From positions 1-41,654 of the forward strand of contig PMUN01000296.1 of assembly GCA_003166875.1 (NCBI GenBank): a stretch of 41,654 nucleotides of DNA, in the 5' to 3' direction. The notes under the pieces were generated by a model, which saw nothing but the letters and a program-made list of their open reading frames with translations, was not told the DNA's origin and searched no databases. This DNA comes from Bryobacterales bacterium. GTDB taxonomy: Bacteria; Acidobacteriota; Terriglobia; Bryobacterales; Bryobacteraceae. Below, one piece after another: positions 3,277 through 32,168 of the stretch (the first letter of the stretch is position 1; each line of letters begins with the position of its first letter). A program made the translations under genes and the position numbers.

Positions 3277-3510
3277 TCACCGCAGACAGCAGAACAAGGA
3301 CGATGTGCAAAGGCACAGCGTACTGCTTCCTTCCAGCATACGCTCTCGGCCGCAATACCCTCGCCGCACCTGAACCGTGGGGTTAAGCTGCATTTTCGAT
3401 TTGTGGCTAGCGTCCTGAATGGCTTTCCTTAAGGCTGCAATACAACACTGTAGCCCCCGGGCATTTACGCCGCCGCCGCTTTTCTCCGTATTGATTGTGT
3501 TCGTGCTCAT
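3277..3510 (-). CDS. small Cys-containing hypothetical ORF (77 aa)
   Basis: Preceded by strong SD GGAGAAAC at 3514-3521 within the repeated leader element; the C-terminal composition is not convincingly coding. Confidence 0.35.
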   Translation of the reverse strand: MSTNTINTEKSGGGVNARGLQCCIAALRKAIQDASHKSKMQLNPTVQVRRGYCGRERMLEGSSTLCLCTSSLFCCLR

Positions 3511-3567
3511 CGTGTTTCTCCTGACCGGGTTGCGGTCGTCACATCGATCACTCAGGTCCGGAGAAAT
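3511..3567 (-). promoter_or_regulatory. repeated 5' leader element, copy A (SD hairpin)
   Basis: Minus strand TTTCTCCGGACC...GACCGCAACCCGGTCAGGAGAAACACGATG, shared with copies at 10621 and 30231; alternative pairings described in findings. Confidence 0.5.
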
Positions 3568-3692
3568 CGCAACCAGAATCTTCGGCGATTAGGCACAAGC
3601 GGCATCCCGCCAATGTTGATCAAACCACTTGGCGGACACTGGTCCCTTTTTATGTACCAGACAAAACCTTTGCAGCCGCGCGCCAATCAATT

Positions 3693-6467: not shown

Positions 6468-9421
6468 GCAGGGTTACAAAACGCTTTAGAATTCCCGGAG
6501 TCCCGCGTTGCATCGCGGGACTCCTTCTTTTATTGGCGCCTTGCTTTGCAGCCCACCCACGTATCTACATCCAATCCTCGGAACATATCGAAGTTCTCTA
6601 TTACAGTCCTTCGCATGAATATCTGGTCACCCATCTCATTCGCTCCTACGAAAACGCGCTGAACTTCGAACGCAACCTCTTCCACTTCACGCCTTCCCGC
6701 AAAGTCAGCGTTCTGATCGAGGATTTTGGCGACTATGGCCACGGCGCTGCCGGAACCGTACCCTCGAACTTCATCAGCGTGGGTATCGCTCCTTTCAGCT
6801 ACACCTACGAAACTTTACCCGCGAACGAGCGCATGACCTGGATCATGAATCATGAGTCCATTCATATTGTGATGGGCGACAACGCCAACAACATCGACCG
6901 CCGTTTTCGATCGTTATTCTTCGGCAAGGTGGCGCCTACCGACGAAGAGCCCGTCTCCATGCTGTACAGCTCCTTGACCAGCCCCCGCCATTATTCCACA
7001 CGCTGGTTTCACGAAGGCATCGCAGCTTTTATGGAAACCTGGATGTCGGGAGGTCTGGGGCGCGCCATGGGCGGATACGACGAAATGGTGTTCCGCGCCA
7101 TGGTTCGCGACGATGCCCGCATCTACGATGTCGTCGGCCTGGAATCCGAAGGGACGTCCGCCGATTTTCAAACCGGCGCGAATTCATATCTCTACGGAAC
7201 GCGCTTCATGACCTGGCTGTGCTACACGTATGGTCCCGGCAAATTGCTGGAGTGGGTCACACGCGGCGAAAACACCAAACGCTATTTTGGATCGCGCTTC
7301 TCGCAGGTCTACGGCATGGGCATGGCAGAGGCCTGGAAAAAGTGGATCGCCGGCGAACGAACCTGGCAGGAAGCCAATCTCAAAGAGATTCGCAAGTATC
7401 CGGTCACCCAGCCGCAGCGGCTATCGTCGAAATCGCTCGGGTCTGTTTCGCGCGCTTATTACGATTCCAGGCTGAACGTGATCTATGCCGGCATTCGATA
7501 CCCCGCGCACATGGCGAGTATAGCCGCGGTTCACCTGGATACAGGAAATATCGAGGAGCTGAAAGACATCAAGGGACCGGCGCTTTACTACGTGACATCT
7601 TTAGCCTGGGACGCCCGCGGCAGAAAACTGTATTACACCACCGACAACAACGACTGGCGCGACTTGATCGTCTATGACGTTGATACGCACCACTCCCAGC
7701 GTCTGCTGAAGGATTTCCGCACAGGAGATTTAGCTTTCGATTCTGAGGACAGCTCACTGTGGGGTGTCCGTCACGAGAACGGCTTATCCACGCTGGTAGA
7801 GATCCCCTCACCTTATAGCGAATTCAAAACCCGTCATGAATTCGACTACGGCATCGACATCTTCGACATCGATGTTTCCCCCGACGGTCAATACCTCACC
7901 GGCGCCATCACCGATCTGAGCGGGCGCCAGAAATTGGTCCGCTTCAAAATCGATCAACTGCGCAAAGGTGAAGCGACCTTCGAAGTCCTCTATGACTTCG
8001 AATACAACACGCCGGGGAATTTCGTATTCTCCGCGGACGGACATTATATGTACGGCTCGTCCTACTACACCGGCGCGTCCAACCTTTTGCGCTACGATTT
8101 CTCGACCAAGAAGATGGAACCGATCAGCAACGCCGAAACCGGCCTGTTCCGGCCTCTGCCCCTTCCCGACGGATCTTTGATTGCTTTCGAATACACCAGC
8201 AAGGGATTCGTCCCAGGGCGTGTTCCCACCCAGCCGCTGGAAGATGTCAGCGCGGTAGAGTATTTTGGGATGGCCACGCTCAAAAAATATCCGGAACTGA
8301 AATCCTGGAAACTGCCGCCGCCATCCACCATCAGCTCCGAGAATCTCATTACCCGCGCGGGCGAATACAAGCCGTTGCAGAACGTGCAGTTGATTTCGGC
8401 CTATCCCATCGTCGAAGGCTTCGAGAATACGGTAGCGGCAGGAATGCGCGCTGAATTCTCCGATCGGCTGCGCCTGGCGGGCATCAATGTGGATGCCAGC
8501 TATTCTCTCGATCCGAATCTGGCCGCGGGCGCCCGCGCACACGCATCCTTTGACGCCCACTTGTGGGACTGGAAGCTCACCGGCTATTACAACTACGCCG
8601 ATTTCTACGACCTTTTCGGTCCAACTCAGTTGAGCCGCAAAGGCGAATCGTTAAAACTGGCGCATTCGAAGTTTTTGCTCTACGACACGCCGCGCACCCT
8701 GTCTTTCGATTGGAACGTAGCCGGCTACGTGGGGCTGGATCGTTTGCCCGAGTATCAAAACGTAACCACCTTCGTTCACAATTTGTTTGAAGCCAATGCT
8801 CTACTGAAATACGCGAATGTCAGCCGCGCCCAAGGCGCCGTGGATGACGAACAGGGAACGAAGTGGGGCATTTATTCGCGCATCTACTATGCCGATAACG
8901 CATTTCCTCGCTTGTGGGCCAACTACGATCACGGATTCCTGCTGCCGAAGAACAGCGCGTTGTGGCTGCGCGCCTCGGCCGGCAAGTCCTTCGGCGATTT
9001 CAACAGCCCATTTTCCAGCTTCTACTTCGGAGCCTTCGGCAATAACTACATCGACCACCAAGAAGTGGATCGCTATCGCGATTACTACAGCTTCCCCGGT
9101 GTCGGAATCGATCAGATCGCGGCGCGCAGCTTCGGCAAGTTTCTAGCGGAGTACAACCTGCCGCCCAAGAGATTTCGAGACTTTGGCGCCACCTGGTGCT
9201 ACGTGAATTGGGCGCGACTCAGTCTGTTCTCCTCGGGGCTCTTCACAAACTTCACCAGCGTGCCTAGCCGTGATTACTACGGGAATGTGGGAACGCAGCT
9301 GGATATCCGCGTGGTCCTTTTTAGCTATTTGAACACCACGCTTTCGGGCGGCTATGCGGCGGCAACCGATAAAACCGGTCACGTTTCGACCGAATATATG
9401 GTCTCTCTGCGGGTTCTCTGA
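6464..9421 (+). CDS. secreted/outer-membrane protein with gluzincin-like HExxH motif, TolB/WD-like propeller repeats and C-terminal beta-barrel
   Basis: TTG start overlapping upstream stop; signal peptide; NHESIHIVM (HESIH); repeats such as LAWDARGRKLYYTTD and DIDVSPDGQYL; aromatic beta-rich C-terminus ending YMVSLRVL. Confidence 0.75.
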   Translation: MSRVTKRFRIPGVPRCIAGLLLLLAPCFAAHPRIYIQSSEHIEVLYYSPSHEYLVTHLIRSYENALNFERNLFHFTPSRKVSVLIEDFGDYGHGAAGTVPSNFISVGIAPFSYTYETLPANERMTWIMNHESIHIVMGDNANNIDRRFRSLFFGKVAPTDEEPVSMLYSSLTSPRHYSTRWFHEGIAAFMETWMSGGLGRAMGGYDEMVFRAMVRDDARIYDVVGLESEGTSADFQTGANSYLYGTRFMTWLCYTYGPGKLLEWVTRGENTKRYFGSRFSQVYGMGMAEAWKKWIAGERTWQEANLKEIRKYPVTQPQRLSSKSLGSVSRAYYDSRLNVIYAGIRYPAHMASIAAVHLDTGNIEELKDIKGPALYYVTSLAWDARGRKLYYTTDNNDWRDLIVYDVDTHHSQRLLKDFRTGDLAFDSEDSSLWGVRHENGLSTLVEIPSPYSEFKTRHEFDYGIDIFDIDVSPDGQYLTGAITDLSGRQKLVRFKIDQLRKGEATFEVLYDFEYNTPGNFVFSADGHYMYGSSYYTGASNLLRYDFSTKKMEPISNAETGLFRPLPLPDGSLIAFEYTSKGFVPGRVPTQPLEDVSAVEYFGMATLKKYPELKSWKLPPPSTISSENLITRAGEYKPLQNVQLISAYPIVEGFENTVAAGMRAEFSDRLRLAGINVDASYSLDPNLAAGARAHASFDAHLWDWKLTGYYNYADFYDLFGPTQLSRKGESLKLAHSKFLLYDTPRTLSFDWNVAGYVGLDRLPEYQNVTTFVHNLFEANALLKYANVSRAQGAVDDEQGTKWGIYSRIYYADNAFPRLWANYDHGFLLPKNSALWLRASAGKSFGDFNSPFSSFYFGAFGNNYIDHQEVDRYRDYYSFPGVGIDQIAARSFGKFLAEYNLPPKRFRDFGATWCYVNWARLSLFSSGLFTNFTSVPSRDYYGNVGTQLDIRVVLFSYLNTTLSGGYAAATDKTGHVSTEYMVSLRVL

Positions 9422-10449
9422 TGTTGCCCGCCTCGATTCGATTGGCTCTTATCCAAGCTGGTCTGAGCATACTTCCAGTAATTCTCTTCTTGTTCGCTCT
9501 GGAACTGATCGACACTTACAAACTGCTCGCTCTTCGCCGCGTGCTCCGCAGCGTTGCGGTTGGATGCGGCGTCGCGATAGTTTGCTACGGTCTCAACACG
9601 GCGATTTACAAGCTTGGCATGGTCTCGCCGGCGCTGTGGGCACGCTCGGGAGCGCCCGTGATCGAAGAAATCGCCAAGGCGCTGTATGTCGCCTGGCTGC
9701 TGCGCTCGAACCGGGTAGGTTTCATGGTGGACACGGCCATTTCCGGATTCGCCGTGGGAGCCGGCTTTGCAGTTCTGGAGAACCTGACGTACCTCCCGGA
9801 TCTCAACGCCACGGGCCTGGTAACCAGTGCTATCCGGGGTTTGGGAACGGCCATGATGCATGGCGGAACGACAGCGATCTTCGGAACCGTATCCGCCAAT
9901 CTGGCCGAGATCCGAAGTTCGCGATCGCCGTTGGTGTACCTACCCGGACTGGCGATTGCCGTTATCATCCACGGCCTTTACAACCAGCCGTTCTTGCGCC
10001 CGGTCACGTCCGCGGTAGTAGTTCTGCTGACTCTGCCGGCCGGCATTGCGTTTATCTTCTGGCGCAGCGAAGCAGCCCTCGAAAAATGGCTGGGCACAAA
10101 GCTGGATAAAGACATCGATCTTCTTCAGATGATCACCAGCGGAACGTTTAGCTCCTCGCGCGCCGGATCCTACCTGCGTTCGCTTGAGAGCACCTTCGCG
10201 CCGGAAGTCCTGGGAGATATGCTTTGCTACGTGCAACTTTCGCTCGAGCTGAGCGCTCGGGCCAAGGGAGACCTGCTGCGCCGCGAGATGGGTTTCCCCG
10301 TCGTGAGCGACCCTGAATTGCCCGGCCAGCTTCGGGAGTTGACTTGGCTGGAATCACGGATCGGTCGTGCCGGAAAGCTGGCTCTCTCGCCCCTGACCGG
10401 CCAAAGCCGGCATGATCTCTGGGAACTTCAGCAACTCTCCGAAAGCTAG
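9421..10449 (+). CDS. PrsW-family intramembrane metalloprotease
   Basis: APVIEEIAKAL, GFAVGAGFAVLEN, MMHGGTTAIFG and IIHGLYN motifs in a multi-TM context; TGATG overlap with previous gene. Confidence 0.8.
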   Translation: MLPASIRLALIQAGLSILPVILFLFALELIDTYKLLALRRVLRSVAVGCGVAIVCYGLNTAIYKLGMVSPALWARSGAPVIEEIAKALYVAWLLRSNRVGFMVDTAISGFAVGAGFAVLENLTYLPDLNATGLVTSAIRGLGTAMMHGGTTAIFGTVSANLAEIRSSRSPLVYLPGLAIAVIIHGLYNQPFLRPVTSAVVVLLTLPAGIAFIFWRSEAALEKWLGTKLDKDIDLLQMITSGTFSSSRAGSYLRSLESTFAPEVLGDMLCYVQLSLELSARAKGDLLRREMGFPVVSDPELPGQLRELTWLESRIGRAGKLALSPLTGQSRHDLWELQQLSES

Positions 10450-10620
10450 CCACGGTGACGCGAATGTGGCGCACGGACTCCCCATGCCGCCGTTCACGAG
10501 ATCGATTCACAACAATTGGCTCAGCATGTCATTTTGTCGGATACATAAAAAAGGGCCCCAACCCGCCAACCGATGTCTGCATGATGTGGCCTCAGCATGA
10601 TCGTTGAACAATTGACTTGC

Positions 10621-10682
10621 TGTTTCTCCCGACCGGAGCGATGAATGGTCACGACCGCAGCCCGGTCACAGGAGAAACGAGA
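10621..10682 (+). promoter_or_regulatory. repeated 5' leader element, copy B (SD hairpin)
   Basis: GTTTCTCC (10622-10629) + GACCGG (10631-10636) complementary to CCGGTC (10662-10667) + GGAGAAAC (10671-10678); alternative hairpin GACCG/CGGTC 10653-10667. Confidence 0.55.
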
Positions 10683-10829
10683 ATGAACACCACGACTGAA
10701 TCGGAAAGAACCCATCGGCACCTGAAGTTCCGCAGCCGAAGACTTTTCACCTGGGTGTTCCGCGCGAGCCCCGGGTTGATGACCTCCTGGGACCAGTTCG
10801 AATCCATGTTGGGCCCCCAGAAACATTAA
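10683..10829 (+). CDS. small protein (48 aa), MNTTTESERTHRHLKFRSRRLFTWVFRASPGLMTSWDQFESMLGPQKH
   Basis: ATG 4 nt downstream of GGAGAAAC; the track ORF extends in frame to a TTG at 10617 inside the leader. Confidence 0.5.
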   Translation: MNTTTESERTHRHLKFRSRRLFTWVFRASPGLMTSWDQFESMLGPQKH

Positions 10830-11333
10830 GGAATCTTGAGAGAAAAAGTTTGAAAACCGTATTTTTGGGGAGCCAAGACTTCGAAGTTCGAACTGATGCT
10901 GACGTTTTGTTGACAGCATCGACCCGCTTGCCCGGTAGCTTTTATCCCCAACATTCCGAAGATCTTCGGTGTTCACGTGTCTCTCCGGTTTCAACCGAGA
11001 GACCTGAGCGCATACTGCCGGACCGTTCCTGTTGGGCGCTCTCGCCCCGATTTTCTCCGTTTTCTCTTATTGACAGGTCGCGTTTGTTGACAGGGGGGTT
11101 AAGCTTGGGGTGGCAGCAATTCTGTTCGAAATGCGGGTACCCATCTGATTCACTAACCCAGATCAGGGTACAGCCCGGCTGAAGTGTGAGCCTCTCCGTC
11201 GCGCCGAGCCGCCGCGGGGGCCGGTCCGCGATCTGCTGTTGAGAGCCGGCATCAGCGGTTTCCTTTTCCAACGAATTGCAGGATTTTCCCTTCTATTTCC
11301 AGGATTATCCACCGTGGTGTAAAGTGGTGAGTC

Positions 11334-20347: not shown

Positions 20348-22399
20348 TCACTGCTTGGCGTACTTGGCCCACATTGTCGGATCGGACAGCATCTTGATGA
20401 ACAATCCTCCCACTACGGAGCGTGCTTGAAACCCCACTTGCTTGGCCGTCACAGTATCGTACCAGTCGGTGAGAGGCACGCGGCTCTCCGAATCGTTCGC
20501 GAACTGATACGCCGGCGCGACCAGCGTCTCAAAATCAGACTGATTGTCCGCGAGTGTCGCCGTCCAGAGCACCCAATCCAGCTTCGTGTAATCTTTGCGA
20601 TTGTCGAGCGGCAAGCCATACTTGTTCTGCCTAGTTTTGTAGTAGGCGATTTCGGTGCGAGCCACCTCAGCGGGAAACAGATTCAGGCCGAGCAGTTTGT
20701 CCCAAACCAGATTGTACTTCTGGCTCCAGGTTCCGGGTTTGTCAAAGGCCACGCGGTAATGATCGCCATCCTTTGCCAGATCGATCCACTTCTTTGCGAA
20801 TTCCTCGGCCGTGGTGCGATATTCGGCCGCGGCCTGCTTTCGGCCGGTCATTTCCGCCAACATGCCGTACGCGCCCAGTGCCAGGATTGCTTTGATCGAC
20901 AGATTCGCATTGTGAGCCAAGTGCCCCGCGAAATCGTCCGTGGAAAGCTGATTCTCCGGGTCCAGGCCTTTGCTCTGGAGGTACTCAGCCCACTTGGTAA
21001 GCTCACGCCAGTAGCGCTCGGCAAACGACGCATTGCCTTGCACCTTGGCCAACGCCGCAGTCAGGATCAGCATATTGCCGCTTTCCTCGACCGGCATTTG
21101 ATTTTCTTCGGTAAGCTCACCGCCACCATATACCTGCCCGTTCGCCAGCGGGTACGTTCCGAGATCATGCGGCGCGAACGGCCAGCGCCACCGCTCTAAG
21201 CGCGCGTATTCCATCACTGGATAAAGCTGCGCTTCCAGTAACCGCGGATTGAACAGGAGCGTAAACGGAGCGCTAGGATAAATGACGTCCACGGTGGCGA
21301 TGCAACCGTTGCTGAAATTCTCCTTAGGGAAGAACATCGGAGTCCCATCGGCGTCCGAAACCAGCTTGTGGGCGGCCAGCGTCTGGCGGTAAGCCAATGT
21401 AGCCAGGCGCGCATATTTTTCGCCGCCGACACTCCGCAGGTCACCCATCAGCCTTGCGTCGAAAGCTTTACTTTTTTGGAGCAGAGTATCGTGATCGCGT
21501 CGGGCCATACGAAGCAACATTGCCGCGTTCGCGCCGTTGCGCCTCCACCAAGCCCGTTCACGCCGTTCCAGATATTCAACGGCGTAGATGTCGTCGTAAC
21601 CGATCATCATGTAGCGGGACGCAGGCCGGGAATCGATCTTACCCAAATCGATGGAGAACGCAAGCACCGCGCCGTTGTCTGCCAAATCATCGGAATCCGG
21701 CAAGCGACCGTCCTTTGAAAATGAACTGGTCTCCTGCTTCCTCAATCCAATGGACGCTGTGACGCCGTCCGGACGGTCGGCCTCAAGATACAAATATCCC
21801 CAGTCGATCCGAAGGTCGTCACCGCGTTTGGCTAGAATCGGCTGTTCGCGCGAGCCGATCCGCAGGGCGGTTTGACCATCCACCAGAACGCGCGTTGCCG
21901 AAACGGGCTGATCGCGCGTGTTAACAACCAACTCCGAGGACGCATCAAAATAAAGCGCGACGTTATGTTGCTTGCCATCGGCGGAGCGGACATCCCATTC
22001 GACATAGCTGAGTGGCCGCGACAAAACATCCAGATCGTCCGGCAGTGCTGGCGTGAAGAACGTGAGTTCGAGACGCACCCCGCCGTCTAAGAATTGATAG
22101 ATGGTGCGCGTAGGCAAGACTTCCAGTCCAGCCTGATCCATAGCGGGAAATTTGCTGCCGCCCGTCAACGCGTACGTCTTGGAATCAATTCGAGCCAGCG
22201 CAGTCAGACTGTTGGGCTTGCCGGTCCAGTGCGTTGTGATGGAATCAGTCAATCGATCGGCCGCCGACCAGATGCTGAAATAAGGATCGTGCGCGATCAG
22301 CGGAACGGCGGGAGGCCGGATCGGCGCGAGATGGTCTGAAGAAGGGGGCTGCGCGCCTGCAAAAAGCACGAAGCTCACGAACAACATGCAGAGCTTCAT
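20348..22399 (-). CDS. glutaminase A-like (DUF5127/DUF4965) secreted protein
   Basis: RPPAVPLIAHDPYFSIWSAADRLTDSITTHWTGKPNSL...; DEKLLGLNLFP-like C-terminal features; ATGA overlap with upstream gene. Confidence 0.85.
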   Translation of the reverse strand: MKLCMLFVSFVLFAGAQPPSSDHLAPIRPPAVPLIAHDPYFSIWSAADRLTDSITTHWTGKPNSLTALARIDSKTYALTGGSKFPAMDQAGLEVLPTRTIYQFLDGGVRLELTFFTPALPDDLDVLSRPLSYVEWDVRSADGKQHNVALYFDASSELVVNTRDQPVSATRVLVDGQTALRIGSREQPILAKRGDDLRIDWGYLYLEADRPDGVTASIGLRKQETSSFSKDGRLPDSDDLADNGAVLAFSIDLGKIDSRPASRYMMIGYDDIYAVEYLERRERAWWRRNGANAAMLLRMARRDHDTLLQKSKAFDARLMGDLRSVGGEKYARLATLAYRQTLAAHKLVSDADGTPMFFPKENFSNGCIATVDVIYPSAPFTLLFNPRLLEAQLYPVMEYARLERWRWPFAPHDLGTYPLANGQVYGGGELTEENQMPVEESGNMLILTAALAKVQGNASFAERYWRELTKWAEYLQSKGLDPENQLSTDDFAGHLAHNANLSIKAILALGAYGMLAEMTGRKQAAAEYRTTAEEFAKKWIDLAKDGDHYRVAFDKPGTWSQKYNLVWDKLLGLNLFPAEVARTEIAYYKTRQNKYGLPLDNRKDYTKLDWVLWTATLADNQSDFETLVAPAYQFANDSESRVPLTDWYDTVTAKQVGFQARSVVGGLFIKMLSDPTMWAKYAKQ

Positions 22400-27682: not shown

Positions 27683-28144
27683 TTGCCAGCACGTCGAAGC
27701 GAAATAGACCTGGTCGAGCTTGAGAAGCTCTGTCAGCTTTCTTGCACCGACGAAGAGATCGCGGCCTGGTTCAACACTTCGACGCGCACAATCGAGCGCC
27801 GACGCAAGGAGCCGAGGTTCGCGGAAATAATGGCTCGCGGCAAAGCCAAGGGCCGCATCAGCGTGCGCCGAATGCAAATGAAGTTGCTGGAACAAGGCAA
27901 CGCAACGATGGGCGTGTGGCTCGGAAAACAACTGCTGGGGCAGCGAGACCAGATTGCAACCGAAGTCCGGCCCCGGCTCTCGTTGCGAGATCTCAGCGCA
28001 CAGGATTTGCGGGCAGTGCTGGAAGGCTACGCCAGGGATTATCCTGAACTCTTTGACGAGGCGAGCGCGCTGGATGCGGAGTTCACAGTCGTCAAGCCCA
28101 ACCGTCGGTTAGGCCTGCCGCCTTCCTCGGAGAGCAACGAATAG
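27683..28144 (+). CDS. HTH protein, possible terminase-small-subunit-like, paralog 2
   Basis: TTG start after GGGGGGAGCA; IDLVELEKLCQLSCTDEEIAAWFNTSTRTIERRRKEPRFAEIMARG. Confidence 0.65.
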   Translation: MPARRSEIDLVELEKLCQLSCTDEEIAAWFNTSTRTIERRRKEPRFAEIMARGKAKGRISVRRMQMKLLEQGNATMGVWLGKQLLGQRDQIATEVRPRLSLRDLSAQDLRAVLEGYARDYPELFDEASALDAEFTVVKPNRRLGLPPSSESNE

Positions 28145-29652: not shown

Positions 29653-30231
29653 CTACTTGGCGATCCTGTACGTGCGCTCGCCCGCCGCGTTCTTGGACGA
29701 TTCGATCTTCTGGCCTCCTTTGCTGCCGAGGATGCTCACGAAACCGCGCACGGTATGCCGTTGCCAGTCGGTCGCTTTCATGATTTCGGCCAGCGTGGCA
29801 CCTTTGGCCCGCTGCATCATCGCAATTACCTCGGCCTTTTTGTTGGTGCGATCCGTCTTGGGCTTTCGGGCCGCCTTCTTGGCGGGCGTGGCTGTCTTCG
29901 CCGCCTTGGTCTTCTTCACGGGCTTTGCGACTTTGGCGGCCTTCTTGGGCTTGGCTTCGGATTTGCCAGGCTGGGCGTGACCCGCGAGTGGCAGGATTGC
30001 CTTCCATATGCGCGCCACCGCCTTCTTCCGGTCCCCGAGCTTGCTGACTTCGGTGTTGCCGGGGATGCTGTTCCAAATCTCTACGAACCGGCTCATGGGC
30101 CAGTCGGCGGATAGCTTGGCCAACGCAGCCTCCGAGTCGAACTGCGCGAGGTCCGGATTGCACTCGCTTGCGTCGGTAGCGTTCGGGTAAGCCGTGATGT
30201 TGTTTTCGGCGTCGATTGTGAATGTGGTCAT
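29653..30231 (-). CDS. DUF3489-type protein with histone-H1-like Lys/Ala linker
   Basis: Start at MTTFTIDAENNITAY (CAT 30229-30231, SD GGAGAAAC); GKSEAKPKKAAKVAKPVKKTKAAKTATPAKKAARK linker; C-terminal TNKKAEVIAMMQRAKGATLAEIMKATDWQRHTVRGFVSIL HTH. Confidence 0.8.
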   Translation of the reverse strand: MTTFTIDAENNITAYPNATDASECNPDLAQFDSEAALAKLSADWPMSRFVEIWNSIPGNTEVSKLGDRKKAVARIWKAILPLAGHAQPGKSEAKPKKAAKVAKPVKKTKAAKTATPAKKAARKPKTDRTNKKAEVIAMMQRAKGATLAEIMKATDWQRHTVRGFVSILGSKGGQKIESSKNAAGERTYRIAK

Positions 30232-30298
30232 TGTTGTTTCTCCTTTGCCAGCAATAGTTTGCGGCAGGACCATTTCATCGCTCTGTTCCGGGAGACAA
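30232..30298 (-). promoter_or_regulatory. repeated 5' leader element, copy C (SD hairpin)
   Basis: Minus strand TCTCCCGGAACAGAGCGATGAAATGGTCCTGCCGCAAACTATTGCTGGCAAAGGAGAAACAACAATG, aligning with copies A and B. Confidence 0.5.
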
Positions 30299-30890
30299 GC
30301 AAGTCAATTCTTTTTGCCAACATATTGAATCTCCATGGCTTAGGTCGCGCGAATCCTAAATCGCCGACCCGGGTAGGGCCATCTTTTGGGAATCGAAGTT
30401 CGATCTCAATCCCGATTTGCCCCCTCGCATACGCAGACACATTTTGGAAGTTGCGATTATGAATTCCCCGTGCAGCGAAACCGAATTCCGGAGAGCCGGT
30501 ATAGGCATTTCGAGGAAGGGTCCCCTTTGTTACCCCTTTAAGGCGATTCTCGAAGAGCGGTCAGCGCCCACCAGGGGGCCGTTCCTTAATTTCGCGCGCG
30601 GGATGGGCAAATAGAAATCGTCTGTCCGACTGAGCAGGAATTTCGGATTCGGGTGCGGCCAAAAAAGCATGAGGAACGTAGACGTGCGTACTCCCATGCG
30701 GCACATCGACGGAAGCCGACTACACGCTCAAGTGGATCGCCCGACCCTGGCTCGTTTATCAGTCCCAATCCTCCTGCACGCTTACTTTCTTCAGGATATT
30801 TTGCCGACGTGATCGTCGCGAGTTTCTCCGGCGATTCTGAGAACCGTGGAAAACCGGAATCGAAAGGTAACTCGGCCAACCTGAAACCGG

Positions 30891-32168
30891 TTACTTTTGA
30901 GCGGTCAACGGATGATCAACATAGTAAGTGATCCCGGAGTACTGCATTTCCTCCCAGGTCTGGTCGCCCCAGTGCACTTCGTTCTTTGGATCGGGGTTGG
31001 AGGGGTTGTTCACTGAATTGTCGTAGTGGGCCGTAGCCTCAAGGCGAGACCCTTTCGGCACCGCCAGCGGAGTGGTGAAGAGGTAATAGGTCTGCCAGTT
31101 GAAATCGTATTTCGGAACCGCCAGTACAACTTCGGATCGGCCATCGGGATAAATCAGCCGGTACTCCCAGCTCTTGCCGCGCAAATGGGTATGCGGGAAC
31201 AATGCCGTGATGTGCGAGTCCTCGGTGAACTCAATGGCTGAATCCACTGCCTGGTTGTCAGCGCCGGGGGGAAGCCGCAAGAGAAGGTTGACGAACGCGC
31301 TGTTGTGTATCTCCTGCTTCGGCGCCTCCTTGGCGAAGATCATTCCGACGCTGCTCTGATCCGTGGCTTCCTTGCCGTTGGCAGTGTAGTGCACCTGGAA
31401 GAGTAACTGAGAGCCCGCTGGGATCCGGATAGCCTGCCTTGGTTCGAAGGTCATCGCGTTAGTGCCTGGTGCGGTGGTGGCAATGAGCGTGCCCGGGAAT
31501 TGAGTTTGGGAAGCGTTCGGGTCGCTGGGAGGGGGCATCTTGGGCACAACCGGCATGAACGCCGCAGCGGAGGGCGGCCCCCCTCTCTGGCGAACGAACA
31601 CCAAGATGTGATGGACGACGCTCCGAGTACCAGGCCGGACCTCGATGGCTTGCACCCACTTGTCTTCGGTGAAATTCGTCGGGACGGTGAAATACTGATA
31701 AGCAATCGTGCCGCTGGCAGTTACGTTGAAAGGCTTCGTCATGCTGAGCACCACGTCCGGAGTGCCGATCTCCCAGCCTTCGGTGAACTTCGGTTGAGGC
31801 GGCAGATCCTTCGGGTCGCCCTGCGGCGCGCCGGCATCCGTCCAGCGGATGAGCGTGTTCTTTTCCAGCTCGCTCAGGCGGCGATCGTTCGAGAAGGTAC
31901 CGCGCGGCTGAACGGCATGCCAGGGCGGCATCTGGCCCAGCGATACTTTTTCACGAATGGACTTTGCCCAGGGTCGCGTCTGTTCGTAAGTGAGTAACGA
32001 CATCGGCGCGATCTCGCCCGTGCGGTGGCAACTCGCGCAATTCTTGTAGAGAATAGGCGCGACGTCTTTCGTAAATGTCGGCGGAGCAGAGGAGCCCGGC
32101 TCTCCTGGCCAAATGACACTCGATGCCAAAAATGTTGCGCAAACCACTCCGATAAGCGATCGATTCAT
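30891..32168 (-). CDS. c-type cytochrome / copper monooxygenase-like protein
   Basis: Signal peptide; DVAPILYKNCASCHRTGEIAPMSLLTYEQTRPWA (CxxCH); GTRSVVHHILVFV and HTHLRGKSWEY. Confidence 0.8.
   Translation of the reverse strand: MNRSLIGVVCATFLASSVIWPGEPGSSAPPTFTKDVAPILYKNCASCHRTGEIAPMSLLTYEQTRPWAKSIREKVSLGQMPPWHAVQPRGTFSNDRRLSELEKNTLIRWTDAGAPQGDPKDLPPQPKFTEGWEIGTPDVVLSMTKPFNVTASGTIAYQYFTVPTNFTEDKWVQAIEVRPGTRSVVHHILVFVRQRGGPPSAAAFMPVVPKMPPPSDPNASQTQFPGTLIATTAPGTNAMTFEPRQAIRIPAGSQLLFQVHYTANGKEATDQSSVGMIFAKEAPKQEIHNSAFVNLLLRLPPGADNQAVDSAIEFTEDSHITALFPHTHLRGKSWEYRLIYPDGRSEVVLAVPKYDFNWQTYYLFTTPLAVPKGSRLEATAHYDNSVNNPSNPDPKNEVHWGDQTWEEMQYSGITYYVDHPLTAQK

Follow-up and report, generated by a model that had tools for sequence, protein, structure and literature searches.

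Relationship to described systems

In E. coli, mRNAs of the ompA type are stabilised by a 5'-terminal stem-loop that lies at or near the first nucleotide and is followed by a single-stranded Shine-Dalgarno (SD) sequence. The stem-loops described here are compared with these as predicted structures that are tied to a putative phage promoter and vary in sequence among leaders. In anatomy, the nearest described system is that of the SAS/ESAS repeats of cluster K mycobacteriophages, in which the SAS, GGGATAGGAGCCC, is a 13-bp consensus that holds the SD, is set 3-7 bp away from the start codon and has been proposed to act in translation, with its function unproven, and in which about half of the sites have an inverted repeat directly upstream (PMC3203893). 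Like SAS/ESAS, where the genes concerned are non-structural, the motif reported here is a short repeat found before many phage genes and mostly in one orientation; unlike SAS, it consists of two boxes 15 bp apart that precede the SD without including it and behave like a promoter, its hairpin is 3' of the boxes, and its consensus is a different one from GGGATAGGAGCCC (PMC3203893). Two boxes, rigid spacing, an AT-rich upstream edge, a terminator before and a gene start after are features shared with sigma-specific promoters. To our knowledge, CTTGC / GAGTGATGAAT matches no standard sigma-70, sigma-54, sigma-32, sigma-28 or ECF consensus. Copies B and A (below) can fold with the SD paired, as translational riboswitches do, but they differ from these in having no conserved aptamer and no covariation, in that the pairing is found in one copy set, and in that the anti-SD arm is probably untranscribed. 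The motif string CTTGC-N15-GAGTGATGAAT was not found printed in the relevant literature, where DUF3489 received a single mention, and the combination of motif and 5' hairpin appears to be undescribed so far.

The window (the whole 41,654-nucleotide stretch of Bryobacterales DNA analysed here) holds three related copies of this element, A, B and C. Copy B is probably a gene-start module of a phage or mobile element, made up of a promoter-like motif, a transcription start, a 5' hairpin, an SD and a gene. More broadly, and with about as much doubt as confidence, CTTGC-N15-GAGTGATGAAT may represent an undescribed class of phage promoter used both by phages and by elements with serine recombinases in Acidobacteria, Clostridia and one member of the Armatimonadetes. 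A probably element-encoded factor would read it, and hairpins at the 5' ends of the mRNAs would be linked to it. Should the motif be a promoter, gene control in uncultured phages of Acidobacteria and in Clostridial recombinase elements could be approached through its sequence; there would also have to be a transcription factor able to work with the RNA polymerases of different phyla, and DUF3489 genes, which encode a domain of unknown function, would belong to this phage regulon. Because the spacing is exactly 15 bases and terminators lie close by, the promoter reading can be tested directly.

Copies in the window

In copy B (plus strand), the bipartite promoter-like motif, CTTGC-N15-GAGCGATGAATG, occupied positions 10616..10647. 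It was followed by the hairpin GACCG-CAGCC-CGGTC (10653..10667), with the predicted mRNA 5' end at or near 10653, by the SD AGGAGAAAC (10670..10678) and by a 48-aa ORF (10683..10829) that had no Pfam match and reads as what a frameshift has left of the 5' part of a DUF3489-type gene, with homology ending near 10743. The pairing segments named in a first-pass annotation of this region, GTTTCTCC (10622-10629), GACCGG (10631-10636), CCGGTC (10662-10667) and GGAGAAAC (10671-10678), were all present at these positions, as was the hairpin at 10653-10667 that it had regarded as a competitor of the long stem formed by them. The anti-SD arm of that stem (10622-10636) falls inside the spacer of the copy B motif. 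Immediately 5' of copy B, a gene for a PrsW-family intramembrane protease occupied positions 9421-10449 of the window.

The two other copies that had been proposed for the window exist, both on the minus strand. By sequence comparison, the motif was GTTGC-N15-GAGTGATCGATG in copy A (3542..3573) and CTTGC-N15-GAGCGATGAAATG in copy C (30271..30303); folding placed the hairpin GACCG-CAACC-CGGTC at 3523..3537 in copy A, and TGCCGCAAACTATTGCTGGCA, directly 5' of the SD, at 30246..30266 in copy C. In copy C, the common layout did not extend to the long stem, of which only about 5 contiguous bp are kept. Nor do the copies stand ahead of unrelated ORFs, as had been thought. Copy C precedes an intact DUF3489 gene on the minus strand (29653..30231; ATG at 30231, 192 aa; PF11994, Pfam E 9.8e-20), and copies A and B retain the beginning of a gene of that class, frameshifted in B; in copy A, only about the first 30 nt of the 77-aa ORF (3277..3510, minus strand), itself a relic, match a DUF3489 gene. 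As the ORFs downstream of A and B are DUF3489 relics, they are not unrelated genes. On sequence grounds, the putative promoter, hairpin and SD of the relics A and B have outlasted the gene, and only copy C likely acts on an intact gene in the window. The companion suggestion, that the element is the leader of a repeated gene class, was borne out, in that the element lies at the start of DUF3489 genes and of the phage genes near them. Beside copy C, the plus strand encoded a terminase-small-subunit-like protein (phrog_309; 27683..28144) and a serine recombinase (Resolvase and Recombinase domains; PF00239, PF07508; 28189..28875), the latter convergent with the copy C DUF3489 gene. Next to the prophage remnant, a minus-strand ORF (30891-32168) gave cytochrome-like matches and matches to the C-terminal part of copper type II monooxygenase.

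The two-box motif at gene starts

The motif had the consensus AWWT-N3-CTTGCTTT-N-ACCRGAGTGATGAATSGT, CTTGC and GAG being separated by exactly 15 bases. This spacing was kept in 205 of 217 fuzzy motif instances, and column statistics over 205 instances resolved two boxes, AWWT-N3-CTTGCTTT and a very strongly conserved ACCRGAGTGATGAATSGT, around an unconserved spacer, with the sequence T-poor from about position 40. Across IMG/VR, CTTGC-N15-GAGTGATGAAT (searched as CTTGC-N15-GAGTGATGAATSGT) occurred in at least 120 stretches, compared to none with N14, one with N16 and none with N18. Conserved boxes at a fixed spacing are what a two-box promoter would show, and a rigid distance across an unconserved, unpaired spacer suits recognition of two boxes in DNA better than it suits RNA.

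Intrinsic-terminator-like hairpins were found within 100 nt upstream of 31 of 215 instances (14%), compared to 1.0% in shuffled sequences, 2.1% in random windows of the same loci and 1.4% on the opposite strand. All but three of the 31 ended 23-31 nt 5' of CTTGC, so that 28 of the 215 instances, in gene orientation, lay between such a terminator and the next gene start. Terminators this close leave no room for another promoter upstream, which would sit inside the terminator. Downstream of the motif, some genes had a start codon after 7-8 nt without an SD, others started about 20 nt away with an SD only, and DUF3489 genes started 35-50 nt away with both hairpin and SD. Terminators upstream and start codons 7-8 nt downstream make it most likely that the motif is a promoter, from which transcription would start at about position 35-37.

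We postulate that a sigma factor or activator reads the bipartite motif and that transcription would then start a few bases past the second box (in copy B, near 10653). DUF3489 mRNAs would begin at or near a stem-loop of variable sequence and kept structure, followed by the SD and then the gene. Among 20 element records, Sigma70_r4_2 was above the cut-off in one, which was Clostridial, and the Acidobacteria-type virus records among the 20 contained no element-encoded sigma factor above the cut-off. The second box, GAGTGATGAAT, does not resemble a known -10 element, and the motif could also be bound by another DNA-binding protein.

It is unlikely that CTTGC-N15-GAGTGATGAAT is instead transcribed as a whole from promoters farther upstream and serves as an RNA signal for translation enhancement, processing or antitermination. 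The terminators ending 23-31 nt before the motif speak against this, as does a spacer fixed in length and devoid of conserved sequence or pairing, although the very strong conservation of the second box would suit an RNA signal, and the tail of the upstream ORF overlaps the motif in some Clostridial elements. The tight association of the motif with serine recombinases and DUF2924/DUF3489 genes across phyla could point to a site for an element-encoded DNA-binding protein (the serine recombinase, the DUF3489 protein or a repressor) rather than a sigma-type promoter, a reading that we consider quite improbable. Up to five copies were present per locus, each directly before a gene and in its orientation, the packing of terminator, motif and start codon indicates transcription initiation, and an operator would still require a promoter within the same 60 bp.

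The predicted 5' hairpin and the long anti-SD stem

On the promoter reading, the hairpin that follows the motif would form the 5' end of the mRNA. A stem was present in the same region in 50 of 52 non-redundant DUF3489-type leaders, and in 32 it was significant at p<=0.05 against single-base shuffles, in a test that takes the best stem per sequence, which favours stems, and makes the same choice in the shuffles. MAFFT left the variable hairpin arms unaligned, so per-sequence shuffling was used in place of column pair counts. At nearly the same place, the arms differed widely in sequence between leaders and still paired (GACCG/CGGTC, TGCGC/GCGCA, GCGGT/ACCGC, CCGCGC/GCGCGG and TGCTCC/GGAGCG). 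The hairpin first described as a competing fold is the conserved structure of these leaders. Folded from 10653, copy B leaves its SD largely open, and by analogy with work on 5'-terminal stem-loops, the hairpin would most likely keep the SD open and shield the mRNA from 5'-end-dependent decay.

Only one group of closely related copies had the long stem of 14 bp; about 50 related leaders lacked it. Covariation was looked for in nine copies of the stem, and no two-sided change was found: copies A and C and loci L003, L024 and L109 carried mismatches, copies B and L002 had perfect pairing with the SD, and L004 and L381 kept 8/8 standard pairs by using G-U. Across 51 other leaders, spacer-SD complementarity was similar to that of shuffled spacers (median p 0.42; p<=0.05 in 5/51), and CTCC occurred in 13 of 191 distinct spacers. 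Against dinucleotide shuffles, the 81-nt leader of copy B folded well (MFE -27.4, z -3.23; 1/200 shuffles equally good), the copy A leader also folded above shuffles, less strongly than B (z -2.03), and the copy C leader was at chance level (z -0.46).

Very little probability therefore attaches to the riboswitch-like control proposed in the first-pass annotation, a cis-acting RNA (translational riboswitch, thermosensor or protein-responsive switch) in which the anti-SD:SD stem hides the SD and GACCG-CAGCC-CGGTC frees it. Such a switch would account for the folding of B and A above shuffles and for the SD pairing kept in B, L002, L004 and L381, and its alternative hairpin is indeed the conserved one; however, the long stem lacks compensatory change and is broken in several copies, copy C folds at chance and other leaders are without the stem. 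The anti-SD strand lies between the two promoter-like boxes and is thus probably not transcribed, as exact spacing and terminators place the transcription start after this arm. At the gathering score, Rfam gave no match in the window and nothing but a tRNA in 18 related loci, and a permissive search around copy B yielded chance-level matches only. The pairing of GTTTCTCC with GGAGAAAC is a trait of this copy lineage and not a regulatory stem, which removes a false riboswitch candidate.

Three further readings were rejected: N-terminal coding sequence (a frame open from TTG 10617), as the frame is closed or elsewhere in related leaders such as L024 and L047; a conserved upstream ORF from GATGAATG, as position 27 may be C and several leaders have immediate stops; and an exact serine-recombinase attachment site as the main role, as loci hold several copies, each of them ahead of a gene.

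Further copies as probable remains of mobile elements

Further genomic copies were looked for and found, dispersed in the same genome (8.0 Mb, 485 contigs), which contained seven more at E <1e-5 besides copy B, plus locus L024, where the same leader stood ahead of another intact DUF3489 gene. The leader and the first codons of the DUF3489 gene were common to B, L003 and L381, the last from another Bryobacterales genome. Similarity between copies begins abruptly at CATTTTGTCGG (10530), the onset of a left-end repeat, CATTTTGTCGG...AAAAAAGGGCCC (10530..10558, plus strand), and a right-hand stretch of copy B (10797..10875, plus strand) recurred in the contig C162 copy (89% over 80 nt). Given this sharp left start and the 80-nt stretch common to B and the C162 copy, the copies look like the remains of mobile elements. 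The left-end repeat probably represents one end of a mobile element found in this genus. In the form CATTTTGTCGG...ATAAAAAAGGGACC...ACCCGCCAATT (10530-10558; 3641-3666 on the minus strand; loci L030, L032, L033 and L381), it was also found without the promoter motif 3' of it.

Distribution in hosts and phages

DUF3489 was present in 51 of 101 genomes of the host family (probably Bryobacteraceae or a close relative). CTTGC-N15-GAGYGATGAATS was situated 5' of most stand-alone DUF3489 genes and of the first genes in DUF3489-containing operons, and a pattern search in 61 genomes returned 68 matches, compared to nine with the reversed pattern. Recognised DUF3489 genes followed 99 of the 228 motif instances that had an ORF; in Bryobacteraceae and in phages of this family, the motif was also found 5' of further small phage genes, and five consecutive genes of genome G033 had one copy each. 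Around the motif clusters, inspection of the translations by eye picked out genes for portal, protease, terminase and ParB/methyltransferase proteins, and within any one virus record all copies were on the same strand.

When one genome per GTDB species was considered, 55 stretches carried the motif, mostly from Acidobacteria. Clostridia formed a second host group, with the motif before serine-recombinase genes and phage genes, e.g. the MKTQTFGIEIELTG gene; many Lachnospiraceae matches were near-identical copies of one cassette, leaving by our reading about seven independent Clostridial contexts. The one match in Armatimonadetes preceded a DUF2924 gene, and a handful of matches in Nostoc, Calothrix, Paenibacillus and one member of the Actinomycetota look like chance. 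Directly 5' of serine-recombinase genes of Clostridial mobile elements, which often have a TTG start, the motif took the form CTTGC-N15-GAGTGATGAATGGT; loci with the motif before a serine recombinase were L342, L344, L359, L365, L367, L369 and L376 from Lachnospiraceae, and L214 and L225 from IMG/VR. At L379 (Desulfosporosinus) and L233 (IMG/VR), the motif was followed by a TGCG-AAAA-CGCA hairpin at the offset seen in Acidobacteria, before the MKTQTFGIEIELTG phage gene. The only isolated phage with a DUF3489-like protein in the phage collection was the Acidithiobacillus phage AcaML1 (JX507079.1), which encoded it at 21352-21594 (E 8e-11).
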